Assembly (NCBI GenBank): GCA_012959785.1
Contig: DUCM01000006.1
Span: 62,001 to 126,000 of the forward strand
Reading direction: 5' to 3'
Length of the DNA stretch: 64,000 nt
Source: Planctomycetota bacterium
Lineage (GTDB): Bacteria; Planctomycetota; UBA1135; GCA-002686595
In this document: in pieces, positions 27,590 to 47,182 of the stretch
How positions within the stretch are numbered: position 1 is the stretch's first letter
How the letters are laid out: each line of letters opens with the position of its first letter
The notes under the pieces: generated by a model
Database searches by the model: none
Seen by the model: only the letters and a program-made list of their open reading frames with translations
What the model was told of the DNA's origin: nothing
Made by a program: the position numbers and the translations under genes

Positions 27590-28627
27590 ATGACCGAAGT
27601 AAGCCTGGAGCGCCTGCGTGAAGTTCACGCCCAGATGAAGGCCGAGTTGCACCGCGTGATCGTCGGACAGGACGAAGTCCTCGACCAACTCCTGATTGCC
27701 ATCATCACCCGCGGCCACTGCCTGCTCGTGGGCGTGCCGGGACTGGCCAAGACGCTGATGATCTCGAGCCTGGCGAAAACCCTCGACCTGGGCTTCAACC
27801 GCATCCAGTTCACGCCGGACATGATGCCCAGCGATATCACGGGAACCGAGCTCCTGTACATTGATCCCGAGACCAGCGCGCGCTCATTCCGTTTCGAGGA
27901 GGGGCCGCTCTTCGCCAGCGTGGTTCTGGCCGACGAGATCAATCGCACACCGCCCAAGACACAGGCGGCTCTGTTGGAAGCCATGGTGGAACGCCAGGTG
28001 ACCTCAGCAGGCAAACGACACGAATTGCCCAACCCGTTCTTCGTCCTGGCCACACAAAATCCCATCGAGCAGGAAGGCACCTACCCCCTGCCCGAAGCCC
28101 AGCTCGACCGCTTCATGTTCGAAGTGCATGTGGGCTATCCGTCCCTCGAAGAAGAGCGCGAGATCCTGCGCCGCACCACCGGAGGCACAGCGACTGAACC
28201 GAATAGCGTCTTGGGCGCCCAAGAACTGCTCGCGATCCAGGAAGCCGTACGCGGCATCCCCGTGGCCGACCACATCTACGACTATTGCCTGGCCCTGACC
28301 CGCGGCACGCGCGTGCGTTCGGATGATCCCCTGCCCTTCCTCACCGAATGGGTCACATGGGGAGCCGGGCCGAGAGCCAGCCAGTTCCTGGTGCTGGGCG
28401 CCAAAGCCTGCGCCGCCCTTGCGGGAAGAACACATGTGGCTATCGAAGATGTCAAACGGGTGGCCCACCCTGTTCTGCGACACCGCATCGTGACCAACTT
28501 TTCCGCCGCCGCCGAAGGCATCACCTCCGACCACCTGATCGATCGCCTGCTCGACGAAGTCGTGCCCGGCGAGAGCGTCGGCGCTGGCCTGCCAGGCGTG
28601 ACGAACTCCGCTGACCAGAGCGCCTGA
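27590..28627 (+). CDS. MoxR family AAA+ ATPase
   Basis: 345 residues, cytoplasmic. Walker A is GVPGLAKT (48-55), Walker B is VVLADEINR (111-119), and sensor/arginine-finger segments ATQNPIEQEGTYPLPEAQLDRF follow as in all MoxR proteins. The C-terminal helical lid carries VAHPVLRHRI. MoxR ATPases act as chaperones for, or activators of, partner proteins with VWA domains, which are encoded next (DUF58, BatA-like, VWA/GATase). First gene of the 27.6-47.2 kb operon; the next start is 7 nt after its stop. Confidence 0.95.
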   Translation: MTEVSLERLREVHAQMKAELHRVIVGQDEVLDQLLIAIITRGHCLLVGVPGLAKTLMISSLAKTLDLGFNRIQFTPDMMPSDITGTELLYIDPETSARSFRFEEGPLFASVVLADEINRTPPKTQAALLEAMVERQVTSAGKRHELPNPFFVLATQNPIEQEGTYPLPEAQLDRFMFEVHVGYPSLEEEREILRRTTGGTATEPNSVLGAQELLAIQEAVRGIPVADHIYDYCLALTRGTRVRSDDPLPFLTEWVTWGAGPRASQFLVLGAKACAALAGRTHVAIEDVKRVAHPVLRHRIVTNFSAAAEGITSDHLIDRLLDEVVPGESVGAGLPGVTNSADQSA

Positions 28628-28634
28628 AAGCACC

Positions 28635-29543
28635 TTGGCCCAGGCAGAAACCAGCCTCGACCCGGCCGTCCTCGACCGGCTGTCCAGCCTTTCGCTCGTG
28701 GCGCGAACGGTGGTGGAAGGCTTCATGGCAGGTCAACACCGCTCGCCCCACCGCGGCAGCTCGGTGGAGTTCCAGCAACACCGCGAGTATGTGCCTGGGG
28801 ACGAAATCAAGCGCATCGACTGGAAGGTCTTCGCCAAGTCCGACCGCCTGGTGGTCAAGGAGTTCGTGGCCGAAACAAACCTGGCCCTGCACATCCTGCT
28901 CGACGCCTCGGAGTCCATGGCCTACGGCTCCCTCGACTGGACCAAGTTCGACTACGCGCGCTGGAGCGCCGCCGCCCTGGCGCACCTGACCCTGGCCCAG
29001 CGCGACACCGTGGGCCTAATCCTGTTCGACGACGGTGGGCGCACGAAGGTCCCCCCGGGCAACGGCGCGCACCAGCGCGCCTCGATCATCGAACAACTCG
29101 AAGCCGCGGAACCAGCAGGCCCCACGGGCATCGGCGCGACCCTCAACTGGCTGGGCACACGCCTCTCGCGCAAGGGCATCGTCGCCATTTTCTCCGACTT
29201 CTTCGATGACATCCCCACGGTGCTCGAAGGCCTGAGGCGACTGGTGTTCGCCGGGCATGAACCAATCCTGTTTCAGATCCTCGACTCGCGCGAGCTCGAG
29301 TTCGATTTCAAACGCCTGACGCGCTTCGAGGGACTCGAAGGCCTGGGAACCCAGCGCATCGACCCAAAGGCCCTGCGCGAGGCCTACCGACTCGAGATCG
29401 CTAACCACAACCAAGAACTCGCGCGACACGCCCAGGCGCTCTCCATCGACTGCCTCCAGATCACAACCAACCGAGGCGTAGAAGAAGTGCTCTCGACCTA
29501 CCTCGCGCGCCGCATGGCCAGGGTTCGCGGAGGCAAACGCTGA
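28635..29543 (+). CDS. DUF58 protein with VWA-like fold
   Basis: 302 residues from a TTG start. The DUF58 signature RGSSVEFQQHREYVPGDEIKRIDWKVFAKSDRL lies at residues 40-72, followed by a VWA-like domain with the metal-site motif DASES (90-94). No membrane segment. DUF58 proteins are constant partners of MoxR ATPases and are thought to be their clients or adaptors. The stop overlaps the next start (TGATG at 29541-29545). Confidence 0.92.
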   Translation: MAQAETSLDPAVLDRLSSLSLVARTVVEGFMAGQHRSPHRGSSVEFQQHREYVPGDEIKRIDWKVFAKSDRLVVKEFVAETNLALHILLDASESMAYGSLDWTKFDYARWSAAALAHLTLAQRDTVGLILFDDGGRTKVPPGNGAHQRASIIEQLEAAEPAGPTGIGATLNWLGTRLSRKGIVAIFSDFFDDIPTVLEGLRRLVFAGHEPILFQILDSRELEFDFKRLTRFEGLEGLGTQRIDPKALREAYRLEIANHNQELARHAQALSIDCLQITTNRGVEEVLSTYLARRMARVRGGKR

Positions 29544-45990: not shown

Positions 45991-45994
45991 AGCG

Positions 45995-47182
45995 ATGCCC
46001 GTGGGCCTGCCCAGGACCTTTCTGCTGGGTCTCGCCGCGCTCCTTGGCGCGGCCCTGGTCTCCTTCGCGGAAGGGCTGGATGATCACGGCGGCCAAGATC
46101 CTGGGGTGACTCCCTTGGACGGGCGCAGCGATGTCTCGCAAGGCAGCCGCGAAGCCATGCCGGAGGGTGATCCCTTCGGTGACCGCCTGGCGGTGCGCGC
46201 AGCCATCGAGCGGGGCCTCGATTTTTTGGCGGCGCGCCAACGGGATGAACAGGACGGTTCGTTCCCGCCGACCCAGGCCACGAAGCACGCACCCGTAGCG
46301 GTCACAGCCCTCGCTGCCCTGGCCTTCATGTCCACGGGCAGTTCGCAGCGGCGCGGACCGCGGGAAAAAGAACTCGCACGCGCCATTGATTTCCTGCTCG
46401 CTCAAGTGGACCGCGCACCGGACTCCAAACGACGCGGCTACATTTTCGCCGGCCGTGACGAAGTCTCCCGCACCCACGGCCACGGGTTTGCCACCCTGGC
46501 CCTGGCCCAGGCCCACGGCAATTCGCCAGGCTCTTCCCGCGGCGCGCAGATTGCAGAAGCCCTTACCCTGGCGGTGGCTTGCATCGAAAGCAGCCAAGGC
46601 CTCGAAGGCGGATGGTTCTACGACCCCGTGGCCGGACTCGAACACGAGGGCTCGGTGACTATCGCCATGGTTCAAGCCCTACGCGCCGCCAAGAATGTAG
46701 GCGTGCGCGTGAATCCTGCGGTAATCGCCAAAGCCGTGGACTATGTAGAGCGCTCGCAAAAAGAAGATGGCTCCTTCCGCTATTCCCTGGGCTCGGAAAT
46801 TACTTCGGTGGCCCTCACCGCCGCGGCCCTCTCTACCTTGCATGCCACGGGCAAGTACCACGGCAGTTCCATCGTACAGGCCTACGATTACATCCAGCGC
46901 AAACTGCGCTCGCGGGAGCTCCCCGGTGAGCGCGGCATTCTCGACAGCGAGGGACCGCACTTCCCCTACTACGAGCGCCTGTACCTGGCCCAAGCCTTCT
47001 GGCAGAACCCCGATCAAGGGGTCTTCAGAACCTGGGCGAAAGGCGAGCGTCGCGAGATCCTGAAGCACCAGGGAGAGGACGGATCGTGGGGCGACTCGCC
47101 CTACGGCGACTGCTACGCCACAGCGGTCAATGTGCTCGTGCTGGCGCTACCCGACCAGCTATTGCCTATTTTTCAACGCTAA
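45995..47182 (+). CDS. alpha/alpha-toroid protein 2
   Basis: 395 residues with a signal peptide or anchor (FLLGLAALLGAALVSFAEG). QW-type repeats: FLAARQRDEQDGSFPPT, ACIESSQGLEGGWFYDP, YVERSQKEDGSFRYS and ILKHQGEDGSWGDSP. Domain and length match toroid protein 1 at 38802, but identity is low, so this is a paralogous rather than a recently duplicated gene. Both end with the same hexapeptide LPIFQR. Also shared is an aromatic stretch before the last repeat (FPYYERLYLAQAFW here; FFWYGHYYGVQAMY there). Last gene of the operon; a 200-nt gap without recognisable signals follows. Confidence 0.86.
   Translation: MPVGLPRTFLLGLAALLGAALVSFAEGLDDHGGQDPGVTPLDGRSDVSQGSREAMPEGDPFGDRLAVRAAIERGLDFLAARQRDEQDGSFPPTQATKHAPVAVTALAALAFMSTGSSQRRGPREKELARAIDFLLAQVDRAPDSKRRGYIFAGRDEVSRTHGHGFATLALAQAHGNSPGSSRGAQIAEALTLAVACIESSQGLEGGWFYDPVAGLEHEGSVTIAMVQALRAAKNVGVRVNPAVIAKAVDYVERSQKEDGSFRYSLGSEITSVALTAAALSTLHATGKYHGSSIVQAYDYIQRKLRSRELPGERGILDSEGPHFPYYERLYLAQAFWQNPDQGVFRTWAKGERREILKHQGEDGSWGDSPYGDCYATAVNVLVLALPDQLLPIFQR

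Follow-up and report, generated by a model that had tools for sequence, protein, structure and literature searches.

Mutants of the cmdA-D genes (MoxR-DUF58-DUF4159-GATase) are reported to show envelope and morphology defects (PMC5700661; PMC3893208). In NorQD an AAA+ ring moves its VWA partner, and known MoxR/VWA pairs insert metals (PMC13036017). Division in Acinetobacter depends critically on the DUF4175 protein AdvA (PMC7481262), and the predicted direct, positively regulated targets of CenR, an envelope regulator of Rhodobacter sphaeroides, include one TIGR02302 gene and one of the MoxR family (PMC9275681). Here we describe a ten-gene block at positions 27590-47182 of a 64,000-nucleotide stretch of planctomycete DNA (the window; GenBank assembly GCA_012959785.1, contig DUCM01000006.1), which belongs to a 3.67-Mb genome in 24 contigs. 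We consider it likely, if well short of certain, that this block is a planctomycete MoxR/VWA operon of an extended Cmd type, encoding an envelope-maintenance machine, the core of which is already known and the planctomycete extension of which (the toroids and the genes that accompany them) appears to be the new part. All ten genes lie on one strand, according to the list of open reading frames (ORFs) and the chosen starts:

27590-28627, + strand: MoxR-family AAA+ ATPase, CmdA-type (AAA_3 8e-62, Pfam)
28635-29543, + strand: DUF58 protein, CmdB-type, with a metal-ion-dependent adhesion site (MIDAS) (DUF58 4e-46, Pfam)
29543-31750, + strand: BatA-type membrane protein, VWA domain with MIDAS, CmdC-type without DUF4159 (BatA 9e-19, TIGR02226 8e-23)
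31747-34128, + strand: VWA and GATase-like membrane protein, CmdD-type (VWA 9e-8, Pfam)
34150-38805, + strand: PQQ gene, 1551-residue TPR/PQQ (BamB-like) propeller protein (PQQ_2 2e-24, three stretches)
38802-39977, + strand: TOR1, single-domain alpha/alpha toroid of predicted squalene-cyclase fold (SQHop_cyclase_C 1e-14)
39989-42310, + strand: MEM, DUF4175/TIGR02302-type protein with N-terminal membrane helices, Ig-like strand domains and a helical end
42312-45155, + strand: CC, coiled coil, the detached C-terminal part of the DUF4175-type protein
45160-45990, + strand: SEC, small, probably secreted Ser/Gln-rich protein with a C-terminal conserved WG.LP...P..YR motif
45995-47182, + strand: TOR2, second toroid, a diverged copy of TOR1

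The intergenic gaps are, in order, 7, -1, -4, 21, -4, 11, 1, 4 and 4 nucleotides, and the GTG start of the VWA/GATase gene overlaps the stop of the BatA-type gene. The statement of the initial annotation that neighbouring genes are at most 21 nucleotides apart or overlap thus holds (gaps of -4 to 21 on one strand), as do its domain calls, which Pfam returns as AAA_3, DUF58, BatA, VWA, PQQ_2 and SQHop_cyclase_C. A scan of positions 27300-47299 found no promoter-like sites, and terminator-like sites at chance level (15 found against 14.3 expected); this result fits a single transcription unit and is no proof of one.

The composition of the block is widely conserved. A relative of TOR1 is present in all 61 near genomes and in 336 of 392 genomes of a phylum sample, with the window's own genome counted and all similarity levels covered. 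For 60 chosen genomes, mostly with long contigs, we took the best listed toroid match regardless of its neighbours, fetched up to 20 kb and counted homologues at E <= 1e-5 on the toroid's strand, contig ends not excluded. MoxR was found in 51 of these genomes, DUF58, BatA and VWA in 52 each, PQQ in 57, MEM in 55, CC in 54, SEC in 42 and TOR2 in 32, and the set of MoxR, DUF58, BatA, VWA and PQQ before the toroid plus MEM, all on the same strand, was complete in 51/60. Among 80 listed TOR1-relative loci (of 510), many of which come from the same genomes and are therefore not independent, MEM stands beside TOR1 in every case (80/80) and PQQ is present in 78, with no matches on the other strand; BatA-VWA-PQQ lies upstream in 56 of the 57, and TOR2 downstream in 42 of the 48, listed loci with enough DNA. 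The neighbourhood check proposed in the initial annotation consequently turned out in its favour, the genes after the VWA gene being conserved next to MoxR in most genomes fetched. A chance neighbourhood is ruled out by the conservation in the 60 genomes and the 80 listed loci.

Conservation extends to more distant lineages in part. Thirty-three of 38 further phylum genomes had a toroid match, and the best locus of 23 of them was fetched. Eleven of these 23 loci keep DUF58, BatA, VWA, MEM and TOR1, their fetched stretches containing MoxR in 6 cases, PQQ in 2 and TOR2 in 1; one more has VWA, MEM and TOR1. The gene order of the window recurs in two of the eleven, and nine show the order (MoxR-)DUF58-BatA-VWA-MEM-SEC-TOR1 with a long MEM, an arrangement that, judged from these comparisons, is the older form of the operon. 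In five one-contig genomes of the family f32, which we take to be Pirellulaceae, there are 4 to 8 MEM homologues each, and 23 of the 31 MEM genes have a VWA homologue on their strand at a distance of at most 3 kb (17/17 in three genomes, 4/8 and 2/6 in the other two); VWA and MEM are therefore often a multiplied pair. In two genomes (G107 and G287) all of the 7 and 6 MEM genes, respectively, have a VWA homologue no more than 3 kb away, and some toroid matches are nearby.

The first four genes carry the relationship to the Cmd system. A Rhizobium leguminosarum block, taken as CmdABCD (RL3499-RL3502) by order, domains and species rather than by locus tags, has the same order of MoxR, DUF58, BatA-type and VWA/GATase genes, with hidden Markov model E-values of 2e-124, 6e-28, 1.5e-17 and 3e-31. 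Six MoxR loci, five strong and one weak, occur in the genome of the window; the four other strong ones are, by the profiles used, a Bat-like operon, a MoxR-DUF58-VWA-VWA group, a MoxR-DUF58 group and MoxR alone. Among the five strong proteins (the sixth, weak locus being left out) the R. leguminosarum MoxR matches that of the window best, with 305 bits against 273, 241, 218 and 207. The MIDAS motifs that had been noticed in the DUF58, BatA-like and VWA/GATase proteins are kept in 53/53 aligned rows, window included, bar one S-to-T replacement. The DxSxS and the later Asp of the DUF58 and VWA/GATase proteins are complete in all 53, the BatA-type residues occur in 53, 52, 53 and 53 rows, with that replacement as the single exception, and the MIDAS Thr of the VWA/GATase protein is T in 49 rows and S in 4. 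The ATPase has the P-loop GVPGLAKT, its Walker A Lys-Thr being kept in 47/47 rows with letters and its Walker B Asp-Glu in 51/51.

A simple hydrophobicity scan gave one segment in MoxR (34-52), not counted as a membrane helix because it falls within the ATPase domain (Pfam 43-177), and no hydrophobic 19-mer in the DUF58 protein, presumably a cytosolic VWA partner. Near their N-termini the BatA-type and VWA/GATase proteins each carry two hydrophobic segments joined by a basic loop; a third segment was scored in the BatA-type protein only, and the VWA/GATase protein ends, by eye, in a hydrophobic stretch and a basic tail. By the positive-inside rule and hydrophobicity, the VWA domains of both proteins would be periplasmic. 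In the BatA-type protein the loop between the first two membrane segments ranks with the most strongly conserved regions, and there is also a weak GATase-like region (GATase1_like 0.04, under the cut-off). Structural relatives of the VWA/GATase protein in the PDB are BatB (3ibs) and the GATase1-like 2gk3, 3soz and 3rht.

The three genes behind TOR1 gave no Pfam match at E 0.01, and their nature emerged from other lineages. There, 14 long MEM open frames were found, of 1152-1436 residues with a single one of 2520 (stop to stop). The CC profile matches behind MEM in 11 of the 14 long MEM proteins at E 5.1e-9 or better; two of the remaining three have CC matches at 2.6e-4 and one has none. In one open frame of 1436 residues (locus L213) MEM, CC and SEC are fused, the SEC match having E 3e-15. 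A control with 22,294 reversed ORFs gave 14 CC matches at E <= 10, the best at 1.1e-5, and only CC matches of 5.1e-9 or lower were counted for that reason; the control and search sets differ in size, so that their E-values are only roughly comparable. The peaks of the reversed-sequence control were 1.1e-5 for CC, 0.7 for SEC and 2.1 for MEM. Coiled-coil bias as the sole cause of the CC match was rejected by the reversed-ORF control. Since CC and SEC occur inside long MEM frames, at values set against these control peaks, MEM, CC and SEC are one ancestral protein, probably of DUF4175 type, that was split in the lineage of the window. The initial annotation had treated the giant coiled coil as a separate partner, a view that we abandon: it is a detached part of the DUF4175-type membrane protein, and 'giant coiled coil' should in annotation be read as part of a split protein.

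The family name comes from matches outside the window. DUF4175 (PF13779) matches 4 of 55 MEM family members at E <= 1, the best at 1.9e-11, and in Sinorhizobium meliloti the MEM profile picks out the TIGR02302 protein next to lysA, at 8.5e-12; the MEM protein of the window itself has no DUF4175 match, and a DUF4175 search of its genome did not find MEM, the best match (0.116) lying elsewhere. Hydrophobic segments of MEM are at residues 33-51, 59-77, 158-176 and 494-512, the last one within the strand domains, and its model (predicted local distance difference test, pLDDT, 89.8) has strands at about 199-545 followed by long helices to the end. In a fold search with MEM the 50 rows shown all had a template modelling score below 0.2 over the query, and were mostly Ig-like ectodomains. 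The N-termini of PQQ, TOR1, CC, SEC and TOR2 are signal-peptide-like by eye, the scan flagging SEC and TOR2 only; from the appearance of the N-termini and the hydrophobicity scan the five proteins would be secreted.

The model of TOR1 (pLDDT 83.5) aligns with squalene-hopene cyclase over 282 residues (Z 27.2, root-mean-square deviation 2.9), and by this model TOR1 has an alpha/alpha toroid fold as in squalene cyclases. Epimerases, GH76 and AprG match the model within 3 Z units of squalene-hopene cyclase, so that no function can be read from the fold. TOR2 is 32% identical to TOR1 (E 1e-35) and scores 3e-5 with SQHop_cyclase_C, under the cut-off. DxDD is the catalytic motif of class II terpenoid cyclases; D.DD occurs anywhere in the sequence in 1 of 61 TOR1 rows and 4 of 32 TOR2 rows, and D.DD[TS] in 1 and 0, respectively. 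Ten TOR1 positions are invariant in 61/61 rows, window included (R145, Y147, H149, R190, Y191, D199, S201, Y261, Y325 and Y326), and TOR2 has an invariant Glu, which aligns pairwise with D199 of TOR1, and an invariant His (32/32 rows). This invariance exceeds what a plain scaffold would require and suggests a bound ligand. As in squalene-hopene cyclase, there are repeated Q..DG.W-like motifs. In annotation the name squalene cyclase should not be given to the toroids on the ground of the fold alone, since most of them lack the catalytic motif.

The best relatives of the toroid TOR1 are, where named, from Planctomycetota, including the complete genomes Pla163, Pla86 and Poly30. The 591 pattern stretches in the genome collection yielded 510 that encode TOR1 relatives, and the 80 listed are from planctomycetes where titled so, several bearing the title 'bacterium' only; a plasmid search for TOR1 gave one match, again planctomycete. 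A 31-kb region of Gemmatirosa gave no toroid match. Tandem duplications of TOR1 were seen at three loci (L087, L100 and L178), L184 being apparently the same contig as L087, and two further toroid genes stand side by side on contig 8 of the window's own genome (L223), in an 18-kb stretch without a MoxR match.

The surroundings of the block contain the following features:

23446-24711: enolase gene, upstream of UP
25117-27219, + strand: UP, TPR and PQQ/BamB-like propeller protein, upstream of the ten-gene block
27221-27301: perfect inverted repeat with two 40-nucleotide arms and a 1-nucleotide loop, between the UP stop and MoxR

The PQQ protein matches PQQ_2, of BamB type, at 2e-24 against 2e-8 for the PQQ dehydrogenase family, and its two halves gave no convincing mutual alignment (best E 0.32); the double propeller of the initial annotation is one possible reading of it. 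UP matches PQQ_2 at 2e-4, under the cut-off, and the profile of the PQQ family with Prob 99.9 and E 1.3e-35; on these matches UP is a diverged paralogue of the N-terminal PQQ region. A homologue of UP lies 5' of MoxR on the same strand, behind an enolase homologue, in 9/9 relatives fetched, at about 2.8 and 7.3 kb from MoxR in two of them, and UP probably belongs to the operon system. The inverted repeat is the sole copy in its genome with up to 3 mismatches allowed; our guess would be a terminator-like or processing hairpin. Behind TOR2, a gene at 47383-48849, without Pfam match and hydrolase-like by eye, has a homologue at 5 of the 80 listed related loci, few of which extend that far.

Taking these results together, we propose a mechanical model that borrows from NorQD (PMC13036017). 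A MoxR hexamer and the DUF58 VWA protein in the cytosol would spend ATP on pulling or twisting a complex in the inner membrane, formed by the BatA-type, VWA/GATase and DUF4175-type proteins, with the MIDAS VWA domains in the periplasm, and would do so by acting on the cytosolic loop between the first two membrane segments of the BatA-type protein. The force would be passed to the periplasmic CC and SEC pieces, the toroids and the TPR/PQQ propellers, and these periplasmic partners would attach to some constituent of the wall or of the outer membrane and remodel it, thereby maintaining envelope integrity and cell shape. By analogy with the described relatives, formation of the complex and transfer of force are plausible, and mutants of relatives point to the envelope. 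The initial annotation had suggested an undescribed ATP-driven machine for envelope assembly or quality control: a MoxR/VWA envelope machine is still the best reading, its core is known from CmdABCD and hence not undescribed, and for quality control we found no evidence, envelope maintenance being the role that relatives suggest.

The locus could instead be a classical Bat operon with chance neighbours, acting in oxidative-stress tolerance, and the BatA N-terminal domain and the MoxR-DUF58-VWA order are indeed common to both. A Bat-like operon that includes MoxR, DUF58, two VWA proteins, BatD and a TPR/SH3 protein, however, stands elsewhere in the same genome, while the window operon has no BatD match at E 0.01 and has neighbours that are widely conserved, so that we regard this explanation as improbable. 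Somewhat less improbable, and still unlikely, is a MoxR chaperone maturing one periplasmic redox or metal enzyme in the style of NorQD or CoxD, with the propellers as client. Metal insertion is what known MoxR/VWA pairs do (PMC13036017) and the propellers match PQQ_2, but the BamB-type match surpasses that to PQQ dehydrogenases (2e-24 vs 2e-8), the PQQ gene is present at just 2/23 distant loci, and a scan of 10 flanking ORFs revealed no redox enzyme other than a shikimate dehydrogenase domain of ordinary metabolism. The presence of MoxR, VWA and propeller proteins also recalls the ternary conflict systems of MoxR, vWA and beta-propeller, which occur in planctomycetes (PMC7159879), and the MoxR of the window exceeds the cut-off of PF20030 bpMoxR (48.7 vs 27 bits). 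That match does not discriminate, because the Bat MoxR of the same genome (57.6) and the R. leguminosarum MoxR (39.8) are hit as well, and the AAA_3 score is much higher, at 207 bits. The vWA-propeller fusion that defines these systems is moreover absent, the VWA proteins having GATase-like regions and no propeller match and the propeller being a separate gene, and the P-loop GVPGLAKT differs from the GXXXTAKS frequent in ternary systems; we give this explanation hardly any credence.

The alternative that we take most seriously, while still thinking it doubtful, is catalysis by the toroids (terpenoid cyclase-like or glycan-active), in which case an enzyme and no mechanical scaffold would be what the operon delivers. 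The fold shared with squalene cyclases, AprG, GH76 and epimerases and the invariant polar residues of TOR1 (R145, Y147, H149, R190, D199 and S201) are in its favour, against the presence of DxDD in only 1/61 TOR1 and 4/32 TOR2. It is less plausible that the genes are neighbours only, without a common machine. The splits and lone toroids of some lineages would be expected in that case, whereas the fusion of MEM, CC and SEC and the VWA homologue within 3 kb of 23/31 MEM genes in f32 would not. Several observations do weigh against an extended Cmd-type envelope machine. No TOR1 relative was found at E 0.001 in 56/392 genomes, and in 8/60 the chosen TOR1 lacks VWA or MEM as a neighbour. Two of these eight are paralogue choices: for one (L088) the operon sits at another toroid locus in its genome (L225), and for the other (L112) VWA and toroid pieces are on another contig. 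In five (L070, L090, L104, L109 and L113) the operon looks split, and in the last (L099) a contig end cuts the upstream side and there is no MEM within 7 kb downstream. Among the 23 distant loci, VWA is missing from the stretch in four that have MEM and TOR1, and seven have a lone toroid, including all 5 f32 genomes fetched, and toroid genes are numerous in these genomes. As to family membership, 51/55 MEM members have no DUF4175 match at E 1 and just 1 of 7 long MEM proteins matches it (1.8e-3, under the cut-off); about 300 kb separate the DUF4175 relative of S. meliloti, next to lysA, from the cmd-type block there; and the DUF58 protein of the window matches that of its own Bat operon better (116 bits) than its counterpart in R. 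leguminosarum (62 bits). Finally, the MoxR-family target in R. sphaeroides is marked with a transmembrane domain, and may for that reason not be CmdA.

A bolder version of the envelope-machine reading would make the operon an envelope-remodelling engine of planctomycete growth and division, with the secreted toroids as working parts of an ATP-driven trans-envelope machine. Conservation over much of the phylum, the 6-7 VWA-MEM pairs of some genomes, the shape defects of cmd mutants and the division role of AdvA hint at it, and we entertain it as a highly speculative idea. To our knowledge, planctomycetes lack FtsZ and a normal divisome. Their cell biology is unusual, and a widespread envelope machine would be a clear target.

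Placed beside the described systems, the operon resembles each of them in part. The third gene of Cmd has DUF4159 at 5e-54 whereas the BatA-type protein of the window has none at E 0.1; the window operon is therefore a variant rather than a strict member of the Cmd type. The rhizobial cmd-type stretches fetched have no DUF4175, toroid or propeller match. In one of them, from S. meliloti (L226, about 16606-18743), the fourth cmd-type gene consists of two overlapping frames and is unannotated, through a frameshift or a sequencing error. Gemmatirosa kalamazoonensis has MoxR-DUF58-BatA-MEM in one contiguous run, with a VWA homologue 4.5 kb upstream of it. The Bat operon shares MoxR, DUF58 and BatA/BatB-like VWA membrane proteins with the window operon, in which neither a BatD- or BatE-type match behind the VWA genes (BatD at E 0.01) nor a TPR/SH3 gene was found. 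The Bat-like operon of the window's own genome (L220, contig 21, about 80.9-89.6 kb) reads MoxR, DUF58, unknown, VWA, VWA, unknown, BatD, TPR/SH3. As in NorQD, a MoxR AAA+ protein goes with a VWA partner, but the partners and the target differ, and no metal-enzyme client was recognised here. Squalene-hopene cyclase has two toroid domains, whereas TOR1 has one, a signal-peptide-like start and a mostly missing DxDD. We found no description of a toroid-bearing MoxR operon in the open-licence literature searched. The TIGR02302/DUF4175-type protein is here split into three genes and placed within a MoxR operon; in AdvA, a presumed relative of MEM by family, the DUF4175 domain lies before residue 203. 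The operon thus joins Cmd-type MoxR/VWA proteins, DUF4175/TIGR02302 proteins and cyclase-fold toroids with signal-peptide-like starts, three separately known and poorly understood families, in one conserved unit, so that any of them can now be tested as a partner of the other two.

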